Program-made: the position numbers and the translations under genes | Notes under the pieces: generated by a model | What the model was told of the DNA's origin: nothing | What the model saw: the letters and a program-made list of their open reading frames with translations, nothing else | Database searches by the model: none | Source: Calocera cornea HHB12733 | Taxonomy: Eukaryota; Basidiomycota; Dacrymycetes; Dacrymycetales; Dacrymycetaceae | DNA length: 64,000 bases | Direction of reading: 5' to 3' | NCBI GenBank assembly: GCA_001632435.1 | Contig: KV423987.1 | Span: 85,240 to 149,239 of the forward strand | In this document: in pieces, positions 40,225 through 64,000 of the stretch | How positions within the stretch are numbered: the first letter of the stretch is position 1 | How the letters are laid out: the number at the start of each line of letters is the position of its first letter

Positions 40225-40301
40225 TCACCGCGTTTTGGATAGGAGTTTGCTGAGGTGAGGGAAGGGTGGGAAAGGGTAGGAAAGGTTGGCTGCGCCAACC
40301 C
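40225..40301 (+). repeat. candidate left terminal inverted repeat
   Basis: Blocks TCACCGCGTTT, TTTGCTG, AGGTGAGGGAAGG and the near-palindrome GGTTGGCTGCGCCAACC occur in this order and match the reverse complement of the right end with gaps. Identity outside the blocks is low. Confidence 0.5.
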
Positions 40302-40670
40302 GCCCTGATCCCGAGCGCAGATGACCTATCCCATTCGGGGATTAGGTCATCAAAGCTTAAGTAGATTAGGCTGCGCTGTATTGTAGATTACTTAGAATGA
40401 TAATATTAATTAAATATTAACTTTACTTACCTAGAATGGGCAAGGCAGCGCTGCCTGGCCTCGAACTTAGGATAGTCAATCTGCTCCCCAGGCAGGGGAG
40501 CAGCCAACGAAATCCATTGCGATTTCGTGTAATAGTGCTGGTCGTCGGACCAGCACTCGAATACTTTCGGTCGTGTAATAGTTGCTGGCCGTCAAGACCA
40601 GGGAATCATCATTCATTGAGGTTATCTAATTGTACAGGTATGGCAGGCACAGGTATCTTCTCGACGCATT
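40302..40670. other. subterminal spacer of the transposon
   Basis: An AT-rich tract (about 40,360-40,430, including TTAATTAAATATTAA) is followed by two copies of the dispersed repeat at 40525-40541 and 40571-40588. Each copy has a partial inverted partner beside it. No gene. Confidence 0.6.
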
Positions 40671-41822
40671 CTAGGCGGCGGAGGGCTCATCGGCGGGCCA
40701 GCCGATGATCCTCAAAAACGTCGTCACGGTCCCCAGACCATGGTACTTGAGGAAGGCGGCGAGCGCTGAACACAAGCTTAGAGACGTTGAGGAAGAGCAG
40801 AAGGACGACGTACCGATCAAGCCAAGCGCCTTGAGGATGGCGAGCCCGTACTTGGCGAGGAACGCCTTGGTCGCCCCATACGCCGCCTTCGCCGTCTTCT
40901 TCACCCACTGGCCCGCTTTCTTCTTCTTCAGCGCAAAGCGCGCGTGGGCGTTGCCGATGTGCTCGCGGACACCGACTTTGACGCGCTCCATGCGGCTGAG
41001 CTCGATGCCCTGCGCGCGACCGATCTCGAACTCGCCGATGAGCTCCTCGAGGAGGAGGACCTTCTTGCCGTCGGCGACTTCGGCGTCGTACTGCGCGAAG
41101 CGCACGTTCTGCTCGTGGTAGCCGACTTTCTGGCCGTAGACGCGGCGCTTGTGCGCCTCAGCTTCCAGGCGAGCCGGCGACGCCTCGAGGAGGTCCCAGC
41201 CGGGCTCGCCGAGACCTTCAGCACGCATTTCGTCCACCGTGAGGACGTGGACCGCTCCTTCGGTAGCGGGAGCGTCGACGCCGTCGACGTCGTCCTCGTC
41301 GTCCTCGTCGGCAGCGATGTCTTCAGGAGCGGCCTGAGCACGCTCCTCGTCGTCGGTGTTGACCTAAACAAGAGGTCAGCATGGATTGATACGTGTGCTG
41401 GTCGCTTGTCGACCAGCACTGTTACACGACCGCTGCCCAATGGGCAGCCGTCGGCGCACCTTGGACGCCGCCAGCACCTCGCGCACCTCCTCATCCGTCA
41501 GCTCGCGCCCGACCTCCTTGGCCTTCTTGACGAGGGCAATGGCGAGCTGCAAGCTGGCGGGGTCGACGACCTCCAGCTTGATCTTGCTCTCGCCAGAGCC
41601 TTCGCCGACCTCCTCAGCGGCCTTCCCCTTCCCCTTCTCGTCCCCAGCCTCAGTGCGAGCCTTCTCCAGCTCCAAACCCGCCTTCTCGCGCTCGATCTGC
41701 GCCTTCTCGAGCTCGGTGCTCGCCTTCTCGAGGTCGAGCTCGTTCTTGAAAATCGTGCCCAGGTCGGGGCTCGAGTCGTTGCCGGCAGGAGAGGGGGGAG
41801 CAGAGTCGACGAGACAGTCCAT
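40671..41822 (-). CDS. transposon-borne gene A, unknown, 335 aa
   Basis: Three exons: 41822-41460, 41363-40814 and 40765-40671. Exon 1 encodes a Glu/Lys-rich coiled coil with ELEKAQIEREKAGLELEKAR near residues 35-55, then LTDEEVREVL. Exon 2 is first acidic (Asp/Glu run), then basic helical with VDEMRAEGLGEPGW, KVLLLEELIGEFEIG and KKKKAGQWVKKTAKA. The C-terminal part, YGLAILKALGLIALAAFLKYHGLG, is hydrophobic and could be a membrane or amphipathic helix. Intron 1 is 96 bp, about twice the local norm, and holds a copy of the dispersed repeat with an inverted half beside it; intron 2 is 48 bp. I do not recognise the family. Confidence 0.7.
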
Positions 41823-41837
41823 CGTAGAGCAGGATGT

Positions 41838-41896
41838 AGTGGTGGTGGTGGTGGTGGCGGTGATGGTGGTGGTGCGGATGAGAGAGAGAGAGAGAG
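41838..41896. repeat. GGT and GA microsatellites
   Basis: A GTGGTG-rich run at 41838-41874 and an AGAGAG run at 41881-41896 in the 5' leader of gene A. Confidence 0.85.
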
Positions 41897-42564
41897 GAAG
41901 AGAGCGAGCGCGGGAGAGGAAGCGCGACGAGCGTGTATGCGCTCGATTAGGGGCGAAGTTGCTTCCGCCCCTATTTCGCAGCGAGTCATCTGCGAATCCG
42001 GGCCATGCGTAGCATAGAGGCTCGGATTCGCAGAAATCCGGCGCTAGTAGCAGCGCTTTCGGCCGGATATCAGTCGTGTAATAGTGCTGGCCGACACGAG
42101 GCGGTCGCCAGCACAGCAAGCCCGCGCAGCGAATAACTCAAGCTGCAGACCACCGATTTCGATGATTTGTTGCCAGAGTAGTAGTGAATAGTATTGTAGA
42201 CAGTTTTTACATTTTAGATAGACAATGAAATCGGAGGGGAGGGAGCCTTGAATGAAACGGTCGTGGACGACGACCCAGACGACGACAATAATATCATCGC
42301 CTGCCTTATCGGGTCCATCGGGGTGCTTGGCGCGGAGGCGATCTCGGAAAAAATTAAGTCCGACGGCGCGCGTCAGGGGCGAGCTCATTGCCTCAAAGTG
42401 CGAGCTCATCGTCTGACTCCAACGACCACCTCTCTGCTCACAAACCTCTGCTGCACAAGCACCTTCCCAAGTAATCATACCATTGTAAGCTCCTTTCTTT
42501 CCTCTCTTTCTTACTCATACTAACTAAACTTGTCTTTAGGTAGAAGTCTCACACCTTTGAGAAG
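41897..42564. other. divergent promoter spacer inside the transposon
   Basis: About 0.67 kb between the leader of gene A (minus) and gene B (plus), so it should hold both promoters. One dispersed repeat copy lies at 42074-42090 with a partial inverted copy about 20 bp further on. Nothing else recognised. Confidence 0.55.
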
Positions 42565-43789
42565 ATGGCGAAGAAGAAAGGAGGAGGCTGGTTGTCGCCC
42601 TCGACGTCGGTGGAGATAAACCTCAGCAATGAGGCGGGTATTGGTACGCACCTCCTACCCACCGCATACATGCACTGTTCTAACCTTCTAATTAGATCCC
42701 GGCCCCGACGATCCCAATCACGACAGCACGAGCCCCGAGCGCGATACAGACAACATCGTTCGGGGTGAAGCTACCGTTGTCAAAGATGGATCCGTCGGCC
42801 AGCACTATTACACGAAGAACAACACCGCCCTTCGCCTTCGGGAGGGCCCGGTCGCCTCAATTGCGACCAACCCAGCAAAGTCCGCCGAGCATGCGGGCTC
42901 TGTCGGCCAGCACTATTACACGAAACTCGCCCTTCGCCTCTGGAAGAGCCCGGTTGCCTCAATCGCAACCATCCAGCCCGAGACCGCCGATCATGCGATC
43001 TCCGTCGGCCAGCACTATTACACGACTACCGCCCTCTGCCTGCGGGAGGGCCCGGACACCACAACCGTGTCCAACACCACCTCGGACTCCGCCAGCCCTG
43101 CGGATGCCACCCCAACCCATCCATCCACCCCCCAGTCCTCCATCTCCCACTCTGCCAACACAGCGGCTGCTGTGGCAGAGTCCGCAGTGATGGAGGACTC
43201 AGCATCTCCCGCTGTTCCTGCTCCAAGCCGCGAAGTCATCGCCGAGAACGTCACCAACGTCGTCGATGCCGTCGAGCCCGAACACACGAACCGAGATGCA
43301 TCCACCGAGCCCAACTTCGACCCGCCTCCCTACGAAGAGCAAGATCCTGCTGCTGGTCAGCATGCGTACGAGTCCCGTATCACCACTCCTCATCTCCAAA
43401 CCATCCGTCTCCAACCCGACTCCGACAACGACGAAGCCCTCCCCGAGTACCGCAAGCGGGAACTCCTCCCTCCCCTCTATTCACCTCCCAGGAAGAGACG
43501 CACCGCTGCTGCTCATGCCACCGCTACTGCTGCTGCTGTCCCTGCTGCTCGTGCTACTGCTGCTGCTGGGACTGCTGCTGCTGGGACTGCTCGTACTGCT
43601 GCTGGTGCCGTTTCTCGTCCTGCTCCTCGACCTGAGCGTCGCCTCCCCACCAACGAAGAGCTCCGGGCTCTGGCGAAGGCTGAAGCACAGAGGATCGTCC
43701 AGGAGCGCAACGCGAAATACGGCGTCCACATTCCCCAATCCAACATCAACCACCACAATTCAAACCGAACGATCTCCAACCGGGCCTAG
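42565..43789 (+). CDS. transposon-borne gene B, unknown, 390 aa
   Basis: Two exons, 42565-42643 and 42696-43789, with a 52-bp intron ending CTAATTAG. The N-terminus is MAKKKGGGWLSPSTSVEINL. Residues about 60-160 contain three copies of a repeat beginning SVGQHYYT and continuing with ALRLREGPVASIAT-type sequence; each begins on a copy of the dispersed DNA repeat. The rest is Ser/Pro/Asp-rich, with FDPPPYEEQD, an Ala/Thr run and a C-terminal helix LPTNEELRALAKAEAQRIVQ. No family is recognised. The low complexity and the DNA-driven repeats suggest a loosely constrained protein, but the long frame, intron and position between two other transposon genes argue it is expressed. Confidence 0.62.
42799..43110 (+). 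repeat. tandem repeat of about 105 bp in gene B
   Basis: Three units start at 42799, 42907 and 43009 (108 and 102 bp apart). Each opens with CCAGCACTATTACACGA and then a diverging stretch with CGCCTTCGGGAGGGCCCGG-like sequence; units 1 and 2 also share the CCTCAATTGCGACC-like part. Confidence 0.85.
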
Positions 43790-44384
43790 TGCCCTCCCGT
43801 ATGCCCATCTATGCGTCCAACGTCCTCTCTAACCCCACCACTGCCCTATGATTCCCGTCGGCCTCTTTGGAGGCTTTTCCACGCTCTTTGTTAGCTAAAA
43901 CGATGTCATTGTTGTAGGCCCTTAAGGCCGTATCTAACCTAATACAATCGTTTAGAAAAATTGGTGCCAGCTAACCTTTGCTGATTTAGCAAAGGTAAAA
44001 CCCTTCTGCTCCCCCTTGCTCCCCTCGACGCGTCCTACATGGCGCATACACGCGTCTTTGCTGCTCTCGTCCACGATCTTGCGCTGCCAGACGACCAGCT
44101 CGTCTTATCAGACGACGAGCAGCCTTTCAGGGACGTTGACGGCATCGGTCCCTGACTCCCCACAATCGACCTGCTCCTCGACCCCGACACCCACAAACCT
44201 CGTAACGCGTCAAGAAATCGATTTCAACTTTAGGCCGCCTCTTCCTGGGCTGGCTGAGAGGGATGAGAAGGTTGTGGGACCAGTAGAGAAGCAGGGAGAG
44301 CAAGAATCGCTTCGATAGTTCAAGGTGCGTCCCACATCTCCTCGAGTACATTGACAACACTAACCTTTGCCACAGATCATCTTC
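43790..44384. other. leader of the transposase gene
   Basis: About 0.6 kb. A short frame from ATG at 44039 (MAHTRVFAALVHDLALPDDQ, then a stop after 40 codons) could be an upstream exon or a leader ORF. A TTTGCCACAG acceptor ends at 44375, 9 bp before the chosen transposase ATG, so a 5' exon is possible. I could not join it in frame with confidence. Confidence 0.5.
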
Positions 44385-47300
44385 ATGCCCAAAACCACCC
44401 GCCCGAAAAGGTCAATCGCGTCCACCAAGGGAACTATTCGATGTCTGTGCGACATCTGCACAGCTACTCATGGTCCTGAAGGCCAGCTGTGGACTACGTA
44501 CAACCATCCCGGTCACCTTCGCCTCCTCGCGCGCAGAAAAGCCAATGCTGCCCTGTCACAAGTCCCAGCTGGACCATCTGCACCCAGTCATATGCCAGGA
44601 GGATGGCCAGGGCAGTCTACCCCGCTGCAATCGCAATTTGCCGACGAAGAGATGCTGCCTTACGAAGAGCTCGAGCCCGAGCAGCAGCCTCTGCCATCGT
44701 CCCAGCCCTTCGCCTCACCCATGCCCCCAGCAGCACCAACATCAGCAGCGCCAGTAGCGCCAGCACCAGCACCAACAGAAGCAGAAGCACCCCTGCCGCC
44801 TGTGACTGTCCCCTCCCCCCTTCTTCTGCCGGCCAGCACCATTACACGACCGGGCTCACCGATTCTTCCCCTCCCTCCTCTGTCGGCCAGCACTAATACA
44901 CGACCGGCCTCACCGGTCTCTCATCCCCCTCCTTTGCCAGCCAGCACTATTACACGACCCCTGGGAGTCGACTGCGAGGATCCCCCGCCTCCTTCCTCTC
45001 CTATCCCCCTTCTCCCACCTCCTACCTCGCCCTCTGGCTCTCGTGCGCACTCTCCCCTCCCACCGCCCTCTCCAAACCCGCTGCAAGTCCAAGAAGATCT
45101 TCCAACGTTCTCCGAAGATGATGAAGATGAAGAAGACGATCAAGGCATTTCTGTGGAGAATTTGGGCATTCCTCTGCCCGATGCGCAGGCCTGCTCGCGA
45201 GCCGAAGGGGCTAGCCAAGAGCCCTTCGCCTGCTATCTCCAGCTGCACGAGCACGCAGCAGTGCGCATTATCTGCCTGCTGCTGCTGCATATGCATGCAA
45301 GATATCAGTTGCCCCACCTAGCCTGCAGCTTTCTGGCTGCCATGCTCTGGGACGTGCTGCGATTCTTCCTGCTTCTGCGCCCGGACTGCGAGTACACGCC
45401 AGCGACTGCTCCTCCCCGGACCCTCAACACGATGTACAAGCGTTTGGGCTTGTTGGATCGCTTCGACATCAAGACTCTCTGTGCCACTTGCTGGCAATTC
45501 GAGAACTCAGAGGAGCCAGAGCATGACTTCATCGAACTGGACGATCTGGGACTGGACGATGCGGTGGATCCTCAGCCTGACTTGCGCGCTTCCTGGCAAC
45601 GGTTCTGCTCTGTCGAAAGATGCCGTGAACCGCTGTATCTCACAGCGCCGAAATCGGGCATTCCTAGACCGCGACGACAAGCACCTTACGAGCTGCTTTC
45701 CTGGCAGCTGGCTGAGTTCTTGGGCCAACCTGGGGTTGAAGCGGCCTGCGAGTCGTATCTGGACAGGCCAATCTCTCCCTCAACGTTCTCTTCTCTGCAG
45801 GATGGTTCTGTCTGGCGAGACATGCAAGCGCCTGATGGCGCTCCATTCTTTCCTCGCACTAGGGAAGAAGCTGCGGATCTGCAAGAACTGCGTCTGGGCA
45901 TCCTGGTGTCGCTCGACTGGTTCGACCCGAGCACATCAGCAGTTTCCGAGTCCCATTCGGTGGGACCGCTCTCCGTCTGCATCGCGAATCTGCCTCCCGA
46001 GCTGCGATTCCGAGTGTTCAACCTTGCTCTCATCGGCATTGCTCCTGGTCCGCGCGAGCCCGATGCCGAGCAGCTGCAGCGGTTCCTGCGGCCCTTCGTG
46101 GACGATCTGCTGCGCCTGTGGAACGACGGCATACCCATCAAGACACCGAATCATCCTCAAGGTCAGTATTCGACCAGCACGTATTACACGACCCGTACTG
46201 ATCTTCTCCAGGTCGAATCGTGCGAGTGGCCCTCCTCGCAGTCGTCTGCGATCACCCAGCCCTCTGCAAGATGTCCGGCTTCGGGGACCACATGCACACT
46301 GCGCGTCCTTGCACGCAGTGTGAAATCTCACACAAGGAAATGCTCAACAGTGGCTGGAACCTGCACAACGCTCGCGATGGGGCTCTCCACAAGAGGAGAG
46401 CTGCTCGAATGCACGAGCGAGGCCCTCAACCTGGAAGAAGATCGAACGACGCGTACTTCAAGAAGTACGGAGTGCGCTGGTCCGAGTTTTGCCGGCTGCC
46501 TTACTTCGACCCGGTCATTCACTCTGTGATTGATCCTATGCACTCTCTACTACAAGGTAAGTTATTAACACTAACTATAAGCTATGCTAACCTTTCTGAA
46601 GGGCTAACCAAGACGCTATGGTACTACGTTTGGGTATGCGGGGGCAAGGAAGGCATCAAGGCTCTTCGAGGGGCTACAGAAGGAGGGACGAAGCGGGAAC
46701 TGGACGAGATCCATGCAATGCTCAAGACGGTAAGTGATTTCATTGCACTTCTCGGTTCTCAACTGACTGTTTCACAGTACGAAATGCCTGGTTGGTATGC
46801 CAGACTCCCATCGCAGGTAGGATACCCTGCTGGTGGGAGTCTTACATCCGACGAATGGCGTTGTCTTGCAGTCCTCTACGGACCTGCTGTGGTGCGCGCT
46901 CTCTCCCATTCCCGCGTTCACCAAGCTAACTTCCTCGCAGATCCCTCCAATCCTCCTCAAAGCATCGAGGGAACCTCCGCCCAAGAAAAAGAAGAAGCGA
47001 ACAGGCCCAGATGAGACACAGCAAGCCGAGGAACAAGCTGAAGAACGACCTCGAGTACACCCCGCAGCAGGAAAGAACTACCTCAAGTTCGCGACAGTCC
47101 TCAAGATTTACCTGCGCCGCGAGATCACTGAACAAGAGCTGGACCGAGCGGCTGCGTTATATCTGGAGTTCTTCCAGGAATACGTCGAGGTACGTGTGAC
47201 CGGTCAGCACGTATTACACGTCCTGAATGGTGCTGGTCGCCTCTGTCGACCAGCACTAATACACGACCCCCTTCCTTCCCTCCCTTCTTCCCTTCTCAGA

Positions 47301-48390
47301 TCCATCTGCTGACTCCTGCCGCAGATCTACGGCGCTGCCAATGTGAGACCATCGTTCCATTGGGTCACTCACATGGCAGACCAGATCCGACGATACGGCC
47401 CCGTCCACGGATTCTGGACCTTCCTGTTCGAGCGCCTCAACAAGGTGCTGAAGGGATTCCAGACGAACGGGCACAAGGGAGGGGTTCTGGAGGTGACGTT
47501 TGCGAGGGAGTTCAAAAGGGAGATGACACTAGGACGAATGGTAAGTACCTTGTCCCCTGTGATTTCTCACTAACCTTGCTCGCAGAACAACATTCTCGCC
47601 AATCAGCATCAAGATCTCCTTGCCCGCGTTGTTGGAAAGGCACTTACGAAACGCGCTCGCGACATTGCTCGAACTGGAACATTGGCTGCTCTTGCTGCGG
47701 AAGCTCAGGACGAAGCAGAGGCTGGGCTGAGTCTGCGAACTACAGGGAGCTGCTTTGCGTCTGGTTCTGGAAAGCGGCGACGAATGGACAACAAGCTGCA
47801 TGACGAGCTTCTGGGCTGGTATCAGCGAGTGCGACCTGAGCTCGCTGTTCGACACTGTGGCGACTCTACCGCCCCTTTCAGCAGTTGCTTCATGTCTGAT
47901 CTGGCTACCTTCTTCGCTGAACTGACTCTTGAGGGGAATCGCATTCGTACTCTGCACGAGGACAAGCTGAACAAGTCAGATTCACTGGTGCTGTTTCGAT
48001 TTCGACCTGGTGTGCAATGGGTCGGAGAACTGCGTGAGGTCTTCCAGCACTTCCAGGATGGATTGCCGGCGCCGCTCACCTTTGTTGTTGTTGCCTGGCT
48101 CGTTCCCCTGCAAGACACTCCTGAGCACGCTGATATCTACCGGCAATTCCCAGAGCTCGAGGTCGACTTCTGGCAGTTTGGAAGGTATCTGGCTGCAGAT
48201 GACGTCGGCCCCGATGCTCTTCTGCTTGCTGAAGACATCTGTGGGACGGCTGCGCGCTGCAGGATGACGGTGGGAGGGATGCCGATGTGGATCACTACCG
48301 GCTTGAGCAGGGTAAGTCTTGCTCCCAACCAGCGTTCATTGAACTATACTAATGTAGACCTGCTACAGAGTGGAATCTCGCTATAACTAA
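44385..48390 (+). CDS. Tnp2-family transposase (CACTA/En-Spm superfamily)
   Basis: Eight exons: 44385-46161, 46212-46556, 46602-46729, 46778-46891, 46941-47189, 47325-47540, 47586-48311 and 48358-48390, giving 1195 aa. The N-terminus has a Cys pair in RCLCDICTATHG, then a Pro-rich disordered stretch of about 200 residues carrying three ASTITR/ASTNTR segments. The catalytic part shows LGILVSLDWFDP, LPPELRFRVFNLALIGIAPG, FLRPFVDDLLRLWNDGIPI, RIVRVALLAVVCDHPALCKM, a CTQCEISHKE zinc-binding-like segment, YFKKYGVRWSEFCRLPYFDP and SVIDPMHSLLQGL, then FLFERLNKVLKGFQTNGHKG. By family comparison the Asp of SLDWFDP and of VVCDHPA are likely catalytic. The frame is intact, so the element may be active. 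Introns 1 and 5 hold dispersed repeat copies; intron 5 is 135 bp against about 48 for the others. An extra 5' exon is possible. Confidence 0.88.
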
Positions 48391-48606
48391 CTACGAAGGA
48401 ACAGCACAGGTATTTTTTTTTCGTTATTTTGCTTTTCTGGAACTGGAACTAAACGAAACATTGGATGCCAGGTGTACGAATCGCTAGCAATAAAGTAAGT
48501 ATTCTCCCTTTCATAGCTCATCAGGAACTGACCTTAGAATGGACTTCTACAGGTCCTTTTGACGGCCAGCACTAATACACGAGATCTGCATAGCAGATCT
48601 CGTCTT

Positions 48607-50246
48607 CTAAGGACGACCCACGATCGAATCGCAGAGCTCCTTTGGGACGTGCAAGGGATACAGCGAGCGCACCTCCCAGCTCCCAAACCTCTCCATCTCC
48701 TCGCTCCTCCACTTGGGATCGATCATGAAATCGGAAGGGAGGACGAGGGGCATCAAGTGGGAGACTCGACCAAGGTCGACGCGCTTGTGGTCGATGCGAC
48801 CAGCGCGAGATCTGCCCTGGTTGGGAAGGGAGTTGGTCCTGTCGAGGAGCAGCTTCTTGTACCACTCCCAGTACTGGGAAGAAGGTAAGTATTTGCTCGA
48901 CCTGGAACAGATAACTGACCTTGATGTGCATCCATACAGGACGTTTAATCTCCCAGCAGTTGATGTTGGCATCGTCGCGCTCCCGCACCGATATCTCGCC
49001 GGTCTCGAACAGCAAGTCCCTCCACTCTTGACTCCTCTCCTCCGTCTCCTCATCGCACGACAACGCCTCTCCCACCCAGTCGTGGTGCACCAGCTCGTAC
49101 TTGGCAATGTCGTGGTCCAATCCGTGTTCGGCGCAGAAGGGCTCGAGCGCCTGGAAGAGCTGGTCGCGGCGCTTTGGGAGCAGTCAGTGGGCTGCGTGAT
49201 TGTGCAGAGATGAAACTTACCGTCTCCCGTCTTGCATTGCGCATCGCCCGCTTCGACTTAGCAACAAGCTCCAGCTCGTCCTTCCCCTGCTCCTTCCAGA
49301 TGCGCTTGAGGTTGGGCCACGATCTGTCGGCGAGCTCGAGGATAACTCCTTCCTTGAGCCAGCGAGGACGACGGCTCTCAGCGATGGCAACTGGGTTTTT
49401 CTGCCCAAGAGGTGAGTCGTGTATTAGTGCTGGTCGACAGAGAAGAGCACTCACCATCTCTTCCTTGTAGACCAGCTGAGCCGCCAACACCTGGATGCGT
49501 CTGTTCTCCGGGCAGTTGTTGCCCTTGGAGAAGTCCGGCACCATGCGCTCGATTGGGTCCTCGTTCGACTCTGGAACGTAGGGAGGCGCTGTCGGCCCCC
49601 CCACGCTGGGCATCGGGGTCGTGCCTTTGACGTACCCAATGATGCGATACATTTTATTGCGGACTTGGCTCTGCAGCAATTGTGAGTATTTTCTTCCCTG
49701 AGGAACTCTTGCTGACTTACCTGCAGGTAGCTTTTGATCTGCGCGTCGACATGGTCCAGCACATTGACGAACTCGCGCTCATCCGATGGGCGAGCACGCT
49801 TGGCAGCAGCCTCATCGGCGGGCAACTTGATTGGCCTCTTGCTGCGCTTTACTTTGGGCTTCTGGGCGACCTGGCGTTCGAGCTGGGTAACGCGCTGCTG
49901 AAGACTGGCGTCTGACTCCGAGTCTGCGCCGTAGCCGCTGTTGTCCGCGGGAAGGGAGGGAGAGATGGTTGTAGGGGAGACCTGAGGGGTCGACATGTAG
50001 GGGGAGGAGGCAGCTGAGGCGCTGGGGGTGGAACTGGAAGAGCAGGGCAAGGTGAGCGTCGTGTAAGAGTGCTGGTCGGCAGTCCACAACTCACGATGTT
50101 GTTCCAGGTCCGACGCCCCCACGATGCAAGCGCATGATGTTCTGGAGCCCCTCAAGCGGCATCTGGGCGATCTGCTGGAGCAACTCCGCCTGCAGCCGCT
50201 CCATGGGCAGAGGAGACGAGGAACGCTGCGAGGGGGTGGAGGACAT
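48607..50246 (-). CDS. transposon-borne gene D, unknown, 459 aa
   Basis: Six exons: 50246-50095, 50033-49721, 49670-49455, 49400-49221, 49171-48920 and 48873-48607. The N-terminal third is Ser/Pro-rich with a coiled coil (ASLQQRVTQLERQVAQ) and a basic KPKVKRSKRPIKLP patch that could be a nuclear localisation signal. The rest is globular and charged: REFVNVLDHVDAQIKSYLQ, SNEDPIERMVPDFSKGNN, RRPRWLKEGVILELADRSW, HDWVGEALSCDEETEERSQE, VWMHIKYWEWYKKLLLDR, DHKRVDLGRVSHLMPLVLPS and EVRSLYPLHVPKELCDSI. I do not recognise the domain. Introns 1 (61 bp) and 3 (54 bp) each hold a dispersed repeat copy in the sense orientation. It faces the transposase gene tail to tail. A DNA-binding accessory protein of the transposon would fit, but this is inference. 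Confidence 0.72.
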
Positions 50247-50564
50247 GGTGGAGAGGACGGAGAAGAGGGGCAAGGGGAGGATGTATGCGCTGAGGTGAGG
50301 GGCGAGTTTATAGAGGGGACAAGGCAATTGGGGCTTGCCTGTCCCGAGGCCGAGTAAGGTAGAGTTTGCCGGAAATATACTATGTTGGGCAAGATGATCG
50401 GCGATGGTCTGGACGCCGGCGCGTCATAGGCTGCAAAGGGATGGCTTTGCTACTTTCTCATATTTCAACTAAGCTAGATACATTCAGAAAATAATATACT
50501 AGCTATACTAAGGTTGAGCGCAGGCCCGGACTGACAGAATACCAGACTTAAAATGAAGTAAGAA

Positions 50565-50645
50565 AAGGTTGGCTGCGCTAGCCAAGGTCAGGTGACCTTA
50601 TCTCACCTATAACAGCCCAGCAAAGACGGACCCTAAACGCGGTGA
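50565..50645 (-). repeat. candidate right terminal inverted repeat
   Basis: Contains GGTTGGCTGCGCTAGCC, CTTATCTCACCT, CAGCAAAG and CCTAAACGCGGTGA, which read in reverse complement in the same order as the blocks of the left end. An 8-bp stretch (GGCTGTTA) has no match on the left. No target duplication was recognised outside. Confidence 0.5.
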
Positions 50646-56377: not shown

Positions 56378-57751
56378 ATGGACACAAGACTACCGTACGA
56401 GCTGTGGGACAAGATCTTCTCCTTCGTCGATGACAAAGGCGATCTTATCGAGCTCTGCCGCACCAGCTCCGCAATACGGTCCGTCGCCATCCGTCATTTG
56501 TACCGCGCAATCCACCTCAGACATCTCCCACCGCTTCTCAAACTACATCGCTCGCTCTCGCGATGTCCGACCCTGGCCCAATTCGTTCTCATTTTGGAAC
56601 TTGATTTGGCTGAATACCCATTTTATCACCGGCTTCCAGCAATACTGCACGACAGACACAGGATGAAGGTGCGACGCACGGCAAACTTTGGCTATGCTCC
56701 AGCTTGGCTCCGCCTTGTGGCCCGGCTGTTAAGCGTACTGCCGAACCTCAAGACGTTCACTTTCGATTGCAACGTCAAGTCGCGGGAAATGGCGAAGTGT
56801 GTTTCGACGGAATTTGAACGACTTCCGATGCGCCTTCACCGTCTATCAGTGAGAGGCGCGCCCCTATTTGGCATGGTCCGGTCCCAACTCTTGCTGGAAG
56901 ATCTCACTTTCAACACCAAAGATGTCCTTGTTTGGGAGCCAGGAGGCCTTCGAGGTCTTCCCAAAACCGCCTTACCTCGTCTCCGCCGTCTCATATGCGA
57001 TACACCGGACGGTGCCAGCCTGGCCGAAGGACGGCCCCTGCAAGAGTTCATGTATCGCCAGAGAGACAGGGAGGTAGATTGGGCGGAAGTGACGATGGAG
57101 AGCCTTCGCGACGTTCTAGCACCCTTGCAGAGGTCGACACGGACGCTTCGCGTCCTGGACCTGAGCGTGTCCTCGCCGGGAGCGGGAGTCTTCGGGTGTA
57201 TTAGTGCCGCTCTACCTGACTTGCTCGCGCTGAGCCTCGACATACCCAGCGGAATCGGTTCGTTAGAGGTACGATTACGGCTTGATGAGGAGCTTCCCGT
57301 CTGCTTACCCTTTTCCCAGCTTTTGCCCAGCTGGGAGAATGTCGATATAATTCGAGGATTTCAAGGATTCCGCCGGTTAGAAAGGCTTGAGTTACATTCT
57401 TGCTCCTTTCGAGACCCAGACGACTCGATCGGAACAGTGCACATATCAACAGCACTTCAGTTCTTAACGCCAGCTTGTCCAAGCCTTCGGAGGGTTACCA
57501 TCGAGATTGTATTCTTGGGATCTAGCAACGATTTGGTAATTTATTCCTTCACGAAACACAACCACGCTACACGCTCCGATGATCGGCCCAACATGAAGTG
57601 GGAATACACCCGACAGCTTCATGCAGAGGCCCGACGTGTCGGACCTTCCACCATCCCGGAGCTATTTGGAATAACAAAGGCTGGAAAACTCGCAAGCGAC
57701 GATGACTACCCGATGTGGGACGAGCTTGATGCCGATTGTCGCCTCATGTGA
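56378..57751 (+). CDS. F-box protein
   Basis: A single exon of 457 aa. The F-box is at residues 4-48: LPYELWDKIFSFVDDKGDLIEL, CRTSSAIRSVAIRHLYRAI. Further on are segments with weak leucine-rich character (LPNLKTFTFDC, LLLEDLTFNT, LPRLRRLICD, LRVLDLSVS, LDLLALSLDI-like, CPSLRRVTIEI). It belongs to the expanded agaricomycete F-box families that recruit substrates to SCF ubiquitin ligases. The substrate is unknown. The stop is followed within 60 bp by a MITE-like element, so the 3' UTR probably runs into it. Confidence 0.82.
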   Translation: MDTRLPYELWDKIFSFVDDKGDLIELCRTSSAIRSVAIRHLYRAIHLRHLPPLLKLHRSLSRCPTLAQFVLILELDLAEYPFYHRLPAILHDRHRMKVRRTANFGYAPAWLRLVARLLSVLPNLKTFTFDCNVKSREMAKCVSTEFERLPMRLHRLSVRGAPLFGMVRSQLLLEDLTFNTKDVLVWEPGGLRGLPKTALPRLRRLICDTPDGASLAEGRPLQEFMYRQRDREVDWAEVTMESLRDVLAPLQRSTRTLRVLDLSVSSPGAGVFGCISAALPDLLALSLDIPSGIGSLEVRLRLDEELPVCLPFSQLLPSWENVDIIRGFQGFRRLERLELHSCSFRDPDDSIGTVHISTALQFLTPACPSLRRVTIEIVFLGSSNDLVIYSFTKHNHATRSDDRPNMKWEYTRQLHAEARRVGPSTIPELFGITKAGKLASDDDYPMWDELDADCRLM

Positions 57752-61897: not shown

Positions 61898-62322
61898 TGT
61901 CAGGATTGCGGGTCGGGCAGGTTCAGGTAGGTTCAGGTAAGCGAGGGTTGGGGTTCAGGTACCGGCTGGGATAGGTCGCGTCGAGCCGGGGGGACAGGAC
62001 AGAGGGGGAGAACAAGCTGGGATTGACTAGGGACAGGTACAGGGGGAAGCAAGTACAAGGAGGGAGAGCGAGAGTTGACACGACAGGGTGTAACTACCGT
62101 GCCGGGCACACTATATATACGGTACAGCACCTTGTGGGGCTGCGGGCCAGAGACAGGCCCGGGACCCATTCCAATGACATGAACGGGTCCTATAATTCCG
62201 TACGGTCCGGGTACATGTTTCGGATGTCCGGTTATTAGCTTGGCTGAGGTTCAGGTAAGGGAGGTGATGTTCCGGGAGGTTCAGGTAAGAGAACCCTGGC
62301 GGCCCGGAGGTGGTTCCTGACA
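61898..62322 (-). repeat. 3' LTR of a Ty3/gypsy element
   Basis: 425 bp bounded by TGTCAGGA and its perfect inverse TCCTGACA. On the minus strand it is preceded by a polypurine tract (AAGAAGGGGATGA at about 62335-62323), the plus-strand primer expected upstream of a 3' LTR. It contains a TATATATA box near 62,110-62,117 in minus orientation and five copies of the GTTCAGGTA word. The other LTR lies outside the window, so its exact ends rest on the inverted termini and the polypurine tract. Confidence 0.82.
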
Positions 62323-62968
62323 TCATCCCCTTCTTAAGGGTCGAGCACCTGCGAGACAGGCTATTGATCTGCACGATGGCGAGGCTGAGCCACACGTCCA
62401 GAGCGCAGGGTGGTTTGCTGGGGTGGAACATAGGAGTGATGGAGATCCGAGGCACCAGGCAAGGGATCCATTGGTTCAAGGGGCGGAATATCCAAACGAG
62501 GGAGTGTAGGGAGTGAGGGCGAGACTGGGGAGTCCGGGGGAGTGGTGAATGGGGACAAGGGAATGTCTGGGAGTGGTGAGAGTGGACGCTCTCCGGGTTC
62601 AGGTGAGAAGAACTCCAGAGGTTCAGGTAAAGGTGCATAGACCGCAAGTTTGGCAGGTTTGGGCCGTCGGGGGTGCCGGCGGTGAAAGCGCTCTATCAGC
62701 TCATTGACCTCAGTTGATAGGTCGGATAGAGGGATCCAAGCACGCTCAGCGATAGGCTGATCCTTGAAGTTGACAAGGTATTCAAACCGTTGTCCAATTT
62801 TCCGGACGTCGAGGACGTCATCCACTTGATACCAGGGTGAACCATCCGGGTCGATGTACACAGGTTCAGGTATAGGGGGAACTCGTCCTTCCACATTGTC
62901 TGGACTGGTGTAGGGCTCGAGTAGACTGACATGGAAGACTGGGTGTAGGCGCCGCATAGGTTCAGGTA
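61921..62968 (+). repeat. nine copies of GTTCAGGTA/G across the gypsy 3' end
   Basis: Copies at 61921, 61931, 61953, 62249, 62279, 62597 (ending G), 62621, 62864 and 62960, all in the same orientation, usually AGGTTCAGGTAAG. Five are in the LTR and four in the coding sequence, where the minus strand reads CCTGAACC as Pro-Glu-Pro or the like. Confidence 0.9.
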
Positions 62969-64000
62969 AGGCAAGGAGATATGCCCGGGTGCCCACAGGG
63001 CGGATGATCTTGAACGGACCAAGCTTCCGGTAGTCAAGCTTGTCAGACGGGCGGGTAGTCTTGATATTCCGGCGGAGTAGCCAGACCTGCTGACCGGGAC
63101 GGAATGGTGGGGGCGGTTGCACGCGCCGGTTGTAGGTGCGAGTATAGTCCTCCTGCGCATGCCGGAGCTCCGCCTTCAGTTCTTCATGAACATGTTGGAG
63201 ACTGTTGGCAAAGTCTTCAGATGCGGGAACTCTGGGCTGGTCTGCAACCATTGGTGTATAGGCGGGGTGGAAGCCATAGTTGGCATAGAAGGGGGAGACT
63301 TGCGACGAGGTTGAGGTATGGCTGTTGTAGGCAAACTCGGCAAGCGGGATGAAGCTGCTCCAGTCGTCCTGTTGGTATGAACAGTAGGACCGGAGATACT
63401 GCTCTAGTTCCTGGTTGACACGCTCAGTCTGCCCGTCGGTTTGCGGGTGGTAGGCTGTTGAGGCGCGGGGCTCTACCTGAACCAGCTCAAGTAGGCGCTT
63501 CCAGAACTGGGAGACAAACACGGAGCCCCGGTCAGAGATGATGGAGGTTGGGAATCCGTGAGGGCGGAAAATGTGCTGCAGGAACAGCTGAGCAAGTTCC
63601 GAGGCGGAGATGGTTTCTTCGCAGGGGACAAAGTGTGCCATCTTGGTGAAGCGGTCAACTACGACCCATATGGAGTCATAGCCTTGTGAGCGGGGTAGCT
63701 TGACAATGAAATCCATAGATATGGACTCCCAGGGGCGGCCCGGGACATCCAGTGGTTGGAGAAGTCCGTAGGGCTTGTGACGGGGTGCCTTGGTCCGTTG
63801 GCAGAGGTCACACCCAGTGACATACCGGCGTACATAGGCACGCATACCGGGCCAGGAATAGTCCCGACGGACACGGTTGTAGGTTCCAGCTCGGCCGGGA
63901 TGTCCGCTGGTGACGGAGTCATGGCAGAGCTTCAGGATTGAGGCACGGAGTGGGGCAGGGATGTACAGACGCCCGTGATGGAAGACAAGGTCATCCTGAA
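62361..64000 (-). CDS. Ty3/gypsy pol, integrase plus chromodomain, partial
   Basis: The frame is open from the right edge (codon start 63998) to the stop at 62361, 545 codons. It shows the H2C2 zinc finger of integrase (HDSVTSGHPG to CDLCQRTK), then the DDE core: SMDFIVKLPRS, SIISDRGSVFVSQFWK and HPQTDGQTERVNQELEQYLR. After the integrase come VWLLRRNIKTTRPSDKLDYR and RLHPVFHVSLLEPY, then a chromodomain (YQVDDVLDVRKIGQRFEYLV to IPLSDLSTEVNELIERFHRR). The tail is Pro-rich. Protease, reverse transcriptase and RNase H would lie beyond the window. The visible part has no stop or frameshift, so the copy is young. Chromodomain gypsy elements target heterochromatin. Confidence 0.95.
   Translation of the reverse strand, partial: QDDLVFHHGRLYIPAPLRASILKLCHDSVTSGHPGRAGTYNRVRRDYSWPGMRAYVRRYVTGCDLCQRTKAPRHKPYGLLQPLDVPGRPWESISMDFIVKLPRSQGYDSIWVVVDRFTKMAHFVPCEETISASELAQLFLQHIFRPHGFPTSIISDRGSVFVSQFWKRLLELVQVEPRASTAYHPQTDGQTERVNQELEQYLRSYCSYQQDDWSSFIPLAEFAYNSHTSTSSQVSPFYANYGFHPAYTPMVADQPRVPASEDFANSLQHVHEELKAELRHAQEDYTRTYNRRVQPPPPFRPGQQVWLLRRNIKTTRPSDKLDYRKLGPFKIIRPVGTRAYLLALPEPMRRLHPVFHVSLLEPYTSPDNVEGRVPPIPEPVYIDPDGSPWYQVDDVLDVRKIGQRFEYLVNFKDQPIAERAWIPLSDLSTEVNELIERFHRRHPRRPKPAKLAVYAPLPEPLEFFSPEPGERPLSPLPDIPLSPFTTPPDSPVSPSLPTLPRLDIPPLEPMDPLPGASDLHHSYVPPQQTTLRSGRVAQPRHRADQ

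Follow-up and report, generated by a model that had tools for sequence, protein, structure and literature searches.

In plants, short motifs repeated within a transposon and bound, or thought to be bound, by one of its own proteins are known from CACTA elements, such as En/Spm and the soybean Tgmt* elements, and from the VANDAL elements of Arabidopsis, which are Mutator-like elements (MULEs). In soybean, the subterminal repeats of CACTA elements are bipartite (TTGGCAG + AATCTTACAG), often occur as inverted pairs forming stem-loops, lie within 159 and 732 bp of the element ends and differ between families of one species, and they are thought to be bound by unlike element-encoded TNPA-type proteins (PMC2613891). 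The VANDAL motifs are private to a transposable-element family, dense in introns and non-coding DNA and bound by the element-encoded VANC protein, and they differ between related families, diverging as tandem repeats (PMC5735166). Here we describe a 64,000-nucleotide stretch of the genome of the basidiomycete Calocera cornea HHB12733 (hereafter, the window), in which a CACTA-type DNA transposon with a Tnp2 transposase and three further genes (A, B and D) carries 16 copies of a 17-18 bp word. We report private word arrays in this element and its relatives, a common order and orientation of their sites, concerted turnover of the words and their conservation as DNA inside exons. The word is probably a bipartite DNA recognition site, present at about ten positions of the transposon and read by a predicted DNA-binding protein that the element itself would encode.

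The array resembles the plant CACTA repeats in its Tnp2-type transposase and in its short, family-specific and bipartite motif, often in inverted pairs. Unlike those repeats, the copies are distributed across an element of 10 kb and occur in its spacers as well as its introns and exons, and relatives have a different word at the corresponding internal sites. With its 16 copies over 9.6 kb, this is not an array confined to subterminal regions of the TNPA type. With the VANDAL/VANC system the array shares a short, dense, family-private motif that diverges between related elements. It differs in that the sites, which are found in exons too, are mostly solitary, keep their positions and have their words replaced in place, and the element is not a MULE with a VANC (DUF1985-type) protein, its transposase being Tnp2 and proteins A, B and D being without a Pfam match over cut-off. 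The present array combines features of plant CACTA repeats and of VANDAL motifs. The word may also resemble the En/Spm TNPA motif, a likeness that serves as a lead only, since the letters of that motif were in none of the papers listed by a literature search. Among the papers listed by the literature searches, which for some searches were a part of the matches, none was seen to describe word arrays of an internal or concerted kind in Tnp2 elements of fungi.

Results

A private, bipartite word in the window element

When up to three substitutions were allowed, a substitution-only search of the 64 kb returned 14 word matches (100 shuffles: mean 0.07, maximum 1), of which 13 lie at 40525-50075 with 0-1 substitution and the 14th, at 56636, has 3. 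A search allowing insertions and deletions added one-base-insertion variants at 40571, 46172 and 47202, so that the element holds 13 copies with at most one substitution and three with an insertion, the 16 copies that a preliminary description of the window had counted (Table 1). The same search also returned weak relics at 47221 and 49753 within the element, and outside it two matches with 4 edits (9679, 16002). Because the insertions separate GACCAGCA or GGCCAGCA on the left from TATTACACGA on the right, we read the word as a bipartite unit with a one-base variable spacer between its halves; the length of 17-18 bp given previously stands, while the unit itself is corrected. The claim that the word runs through the whole element holds in part, the copies being spread over 9.6 kb with the outermost ones still ~299 bp (left) and 567 bp (right) inside the element ends.

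That the word belongs to this one transposon was borne out genome-wide (32,095,676 bases, 302 contigs). At up to two substitutions there are 15 matches, 13 of them in the window element and the other two, on contigs C10 and C46, with 2 substitutions each; with the reversed pattern as control, 5 matches were obtained. No further copy of the window word within one substitution was found in the 32.1 Mb genome, and a similar copy density across the host, which had been named as an observation that would speak against a private word, was not found. The best 14-mer, counted at up to two mismatches with copies at least 300 bp apart, reached 10 in the element against 3-4 in four control stretches from the window and 3-4 in eight shuffles. 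Chance as the source of the array is rejected by the shuffles, the genome counts and the 14-mer controls, and a dispersed host repeat by the genome-wide search.

The three gene B copies encode VGQHYYT (codon phase 2), and the three transposase exon copies AST(I/N)TR (phase 1). As the codon phase differs between the two genes, selection on protein cannot explain the word, which upholds the proposal that it is conserved as DNA and not as protein.

In gene B the word-bearing repeats are ~102 bp (34 codons) apart and vary in number between elements, with three in the window (42797-43025; 108 + 102 bp), five on C183 (54914-55346; 102-bp spacing) and two on C88 (127847-127966). The ALRLRE peptide near the gene B word is the same in the window and in C26, whereas the word-coded peptide differs.

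Related elements carry words of their own

A search of the genome with PF02992 gave 22 matches, which DNA similarity sorted into 12 with the window element (itself included), two on C91 and C62, and eight of the C20 type (C20, C25, C158, C166, C43b and C70, plus the more distant C237 and C43a). With part of the transposase as query, a protein search found 14 loci of the window clade, C51 and C180 included, and one fragment on C239. C30 and C232 (99.97% identity over 2,830 bp) possibly represent a single locus that was assembled in duplicate. Tnp2 relatives in Calocera viscosa and Dacryopinax have 62% and 53% identity, respectively.

None of the 13 other clade loci has the window word; instead, each coincides with a cluster formed by a different word, of which 4-19 copies were listed. 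Candidate words were read from short loci and then counted genome-wide against reversed-pattern controls (0-2 per relative pattern). Since most of the words were derived from the very loci counted, the overlap of clusters with 14 of 14 clade transposase loci is partly by construction; C51 and C180 have word clusters though they were used to derive none. The word type of C7/C26/C249 has 36 genome matches (control 1), that of C19/C51/C180 69 (control 2), and that of C91 (44-49 kb) and C30/C232 20 (control 2). The C13/C19 word has 26, all on those two contigs (control 1), the C88 word 12, with 11 on C88 (control 0), and the C183 word 15, with 12 on C183 and 3 on C111 (control 0). Together, the 14 related loci of this one genome carry seven or eight types of word.

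Further clusters, without a transposase match, lie on C149, C26 (229-239 kb), C30 (146-152 kb), C138, C208, C44, C201 and C111 and are taken to be fragments or diverged copies; a few single matches are found at other places. At C149:75312-77770, five word copies are spaced as the first five of the C26 element, and this is a second, probably partial copy. Word discovery from 14-mer counts alone fails to discriminate in 3.3-kb loci: the 12 loci reach 3-4 copies, but 3 are also reached in 13 of 29 control windows and in 11 of 48 shuffles. The claim for the relatives is based on the genome-wide pattern clusters and on the positions of the sites.

More distant Tnp2 groups

The C91 and C62 elements (99.4% identical over 4.7 kb) carry GGNNCCCAWTTCGYTY, which occurs 23 times in the genome (control 0), 18 of them on these two contigs, and which by sequence is a private word unrelated to that of the window. 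A looser pattern of it had no match in 206,723 other bases examined. For the C91 element no right end was found, in a stretch that contains a run of N. Six copies of this word lie in one 967-amino-acid frame, three per orientation, and encode three different peptides. A protein-coding cause is rejected by these copies in both orientations together with the codon phases in the window element.

In the C20 group the palindrome GACCTCCNNNNGGAGGGC occurs without mismatch at five places in C20 and in C158 and at seven in C25, and C237 has GACCTCCGNNCGGAGGTC at four places plus one imperfect copy; a clear word was not found in C43a. The C20-group palindrome is less private, its pattern at up to one mismatch having 284 genome matches against 76 in the control. 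In whole elements the best 14-mer reached 11 (C91), 5 (C25) and 6 (C237), against the 10 of the window element and 3-4 in controls and shuffles. Some C20-group elements have GTGCTGATNATCAGCAC near one end.

Matching sites and concerted turnover

Nine anchor sites of the window element were matched in C26 and C7 in the same order, with identical orientation at 9 of 9 in both and with a different word, and their spacing correlates with that of the window (r = 0.97 for C26, 0.83 for C7). One C7 site is probably mispaired, as its last site fits the copy in gene D intron 1 (1,537 vs ~1,493 bp) better than that in intron 3, with which it was paired in the comparisons. The intron preceding IYG contains a word in all ten relatives whose loci were read there (L019, L021-L029), and C13/C19, C88 and C183 have gained sites in introns where the window element has none. 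The different words at matching sites indicate replacement of the words where they stood, with some gains of sites and some tandem duplications as exceptions. The preliminary description had held that its proposal would fail if related elements lacked the word at all these sites; taken literally they do lack it, yet they bear their own word at the matching sites, which strengthens the functional reading.

Word identity was compared by best shift over 16 columns for 64 sites in 9 elements, including 11 of the 16 window copies (four tandem duplicates and 50059 were omitted, as were some fetched C13, C88 and C249 copies and those of C183, C19 (54-64 kb) and C51/C180). For sites of one and the same element (241 pairs) the mean identity is 0.943, and random stretches give 0.516; between elements it is 0.671 at the same site (156 pairs) vs 0.659 at different sites (1,619 pairs). 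The word has thus turned over in concert. Where two elements share a word (C7/C26/C249; L028/L029), same-site identity is 0.92-1.00 and that of different sites 0.88-0.93, and other pairs have 0.54-0.72. The base preceding CGATTACATACC, for which the pattern admitted A or T only, is T at 9 of the 10 sites listed for C7, whereas C26 has A at all 10 and C249 at 5 of 6; L028 has TTC at 3 of 3 sites where L029 has TTT at 3 of 3. These single-base, word-wide switches show turnover caught in progress.

Concerted evolution alone would suffice for uniformity within an element, and gene conversion or template switching could keep the words alike without function, a process of which the local duplication of word-bearing units in gene B offers an example. 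We regard such neutral homogenisation as an unlikely account of the arrays, because uniformity is limited to the short word and the flanks vary by site, which would require tiny conversion tracts, because site order and orientation are kept although the transposase DNA of the elements that share them is only 63-77% identical to that of the window, and because exon copies are retained and other Tnp2 groups have separate repeated words or palindromes.

Flanking structure and strand

Many window-clade sites adjoin a further copy in inverted orientation, either of the entire word or of its left half. For 51 script-recovered sites, 9 of the window's 16 included, the 5' flanks fold at a mean of -13.8 kcal/mol vs -9.7 kcal/mol in 660 control windows (p = 5e-9); the 3' flanks do not differ from control windows (p = 0.23), yet are lower than their own shuffles. 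Between C7 and C26, changes on both sides of the stem number 9 and those on one side 10, and none of the 164 pairs is broken, in a structure derived from those same two sequences. At C88 sites inverted half-copies are mostly missing by eye, although one exon site has one. For most lineages we interpret the arms as a DNA site that forms inverted dimers, an RNA structure being the less probable alternative; inverted half-copies and a variable spacer would fit a dimeric DNA-binding protein.

An RNA-level tag, in which word and neighbouring hairpins would act in transcripts (in splicing, in export or through an element-encoded RNA-binding protein), draws on the stronger folding of the 5' flanks, on the unbroken C7/C26 stems and on strand, since at 9 of the 10 site positions in the window the word reads in the sense direction of its gene (one-sided binomial 0.011) and copies in the relatives' transposase loci, searched on both strands, all run one way save two chance-like 3-mismatch matches. 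The copy in the gene A intron is, however, antisense, as are its counterparts in C7 and C26, the C91 family has copies of either orientation within a single open frame, the 3' flanks are no more stable than control windows and most C88 sites are without arms, so that a tag of this kind seems rather improbable. An obligatory RNA hairpin is disfavoured by the flank folding results and by the C88 sites.

The element and its genes

The inverted ends of the window element, CACCGCGTTT and AAACGCGGTG, start with CACCG, where CACTA/EnSpm elements have CACTA or CACTG; the C20/C158 and C91/C62 elements in the same genome start with CACTG. A 3-bp target site duplication and a Tnp2 transposase (PF02992 at residues 495-635, 61.2 bits vs a cut-off of 28.6) agree with that superfamily, and the element is apparently intact. 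All four gene models read through in frame; the short 3' end of the transposase, up to a stop just ahead of the word at 48564, was read by eye. No Pfam family exceeded its cut-off in proteins A, B and D, and the gene D model is identical to the protein CALCODRAFT_484435 of C. cornea HHB12733.

Both element ends (40226-40370 and 50560-50644) carry another repeated motif, AAGGTTGGCTGCGC (by eye), and hairpins, distinct from the word. Outside the element, a 429-bp stretch at ~61898-62322 is 86% similar to part of contig C70 and is another dispersed repeat; overlapping it, short AGGTTCAGGTAA-type repeats occur in 4-5 copies within ~1 kb (~61929-62970).

Table 1. Word copies, host transposon and gene models in the window.
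Feature	Position	Strand	Remarks
Word copy 1	40525..40543	-	3' of gene A; inverted half-copy adjoining
Word copy 2	40571..40590	-	3' of gene A; one-base insertion
Word copy 3	41411..41429	+	Gene A intron 1, antisense to A; inverted half-copy adjoining
Word copy 4	42074..42092	-	Upstream of gene A
Word copy 5	42797..42815	+	Gene B exon, codon phase 2
Word copy 6	42905..42923	+	Gene B exon, codon phase 2
Word copy 7	43007..43025	+	Gene B exon, codon phase 2
Word copy 8	44831..44849	+	Transposase exon 1, codon phase 1
Word copy 9	44885..44903	+	Transposase exon 1, codon phase 1
Word copy 10	44939..44957	+	Transposase exon 1, codon phase 1
Word copy 11	46172..46191	+	Transposase intron following ...NHPQ; one-base insertion
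Word copy 12	47202..47221	+	Transposase intron preceding IYG; one-base insertion
Word copy 13	47248..47266	+	Same intron as copy 12; inverted half-copy adjoining
Word copy 14	48564..48582	+	Just 3' of transposase stop codon (stop read by eye)
Word copy 15	49417..49435	-	Gene D intron 3
Word copy 16	50059..50077	-	Gene D intron 1
CACTA-type (Tnp2) DNA transposon	40226..50644	.	10,419 bp; ends CACCGCGTTT...AAACGCGGTG; target duplication AGT on both sides
Gene A	40671..41822	-	3 exons, 335 amino acids; no Pfam family over cut-off
Gene B	42565..43789	+	2 exons, 390 amino acids; repeats 102-108 bp apart, one word each
Tnp2 transposase	44385..48311	+	7 modelled exons, 1,185 amino acids; PF02992, 61.2 bits
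Gene D	48607..50246	-	6 exons, 459 amino acids; no Pfam family; candidate word reader

Discussion

A private word that is alike at about ten sites, is kept as DNA in exons and changes together is what would be expected of an element-encoded reader. We infer such a protein, its encoding by the element and its effect; the reader could be one of the accessory proteins (D, A or B) or a predicted DNA-binding part of the Tnp2 protein. Occupied sites would label the whole element as self, and the likely purpose would be protection of transcription from silencing by the host, the role of VANC in VANDAL, and/or a link between the transposition machinery and the element that encodes it, the role of TNPA in En/Spm. 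If the specificity of the reader drifted, all sites would follow, whether through selection acting on the individual sites, through one site being copied to another or through both.

Pieces of protein D match other relatives at 29-52% identity, mostly at the corresponding place. Several results weigh against a DNA site with such a reader. Protein D was not detected in C13, in the C19 element at 54-64 kb or in C88, nor in the C91/C62 and C20-group regions, though words or palindromes are present there; its homologues are itself and one other (about 8,000 candidates scored per search); it has no Pfam family and its predicted structure is unusable (predicted local distance difference test, pLDDT, 41). 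As D was not found in several word-bearing relatives, it is a candidate and not a conclusion. In addition, the copies avoid the element ends, where plant CACTA binding repeats sit, and the predominance of sense copies is not predicted by a pure DNA site. The within-element identity is inflated since sites were gathered by word patterns, and homogenisation is incomplete among close relatives, C26 and C7 having 0.97 at the same site vs 0.92 at other sites.

Two further explanations fare worse. Words throughout the elements might be sites for a host factor, either a fungal silencing or chromatin protein or small RNAs whose targets the elements cannot lose, as host-silencing targets could be distributed in this manner; one factor would, however, need to read seven or eight words, and a silencing target would be expected to be lost rather than kept uniform, which makes this very unlikely. 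The tiny repeat spreading inside the element that the preliminary description had offered as an alternative, a microsatellite-like hairpin or one resembling a miniature inverted-repeat transposable element (MITE), would explain the site gains in single lineages (introns of C13/C19, C88 and C183), but is largely refuted by main sites that lie at matching places with different words and by a window word that occurs nowhere else within one substitution, and we give it hardly any credence.

With a recognition site for an element-encoded protein as the preferred reading, in partial agreement with the binding array that the preliminary description had proposed, a more general proposal, to which we give slightly less than even chances, is that each lineage of these transposons may have a whole-element DNA address code, in which about ten internal sites, exons included, bear one private word and are rewritten together. 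If true, sequence-specific self-recognition, whether for anti-silencing or for cognate-only mobilisation, would exist outside plants and in a superfamily other than that of VANDAL, and a VANC-like logic would extend beyond plants. The findings touch on how a transposon recognises itself against its relatives and its host, and on how a DNA-binding protein and its many sites may change specificity jointly. With many word types and single-base switches in progress within one genome, the co-evolution of reader and sites would be directly testable.

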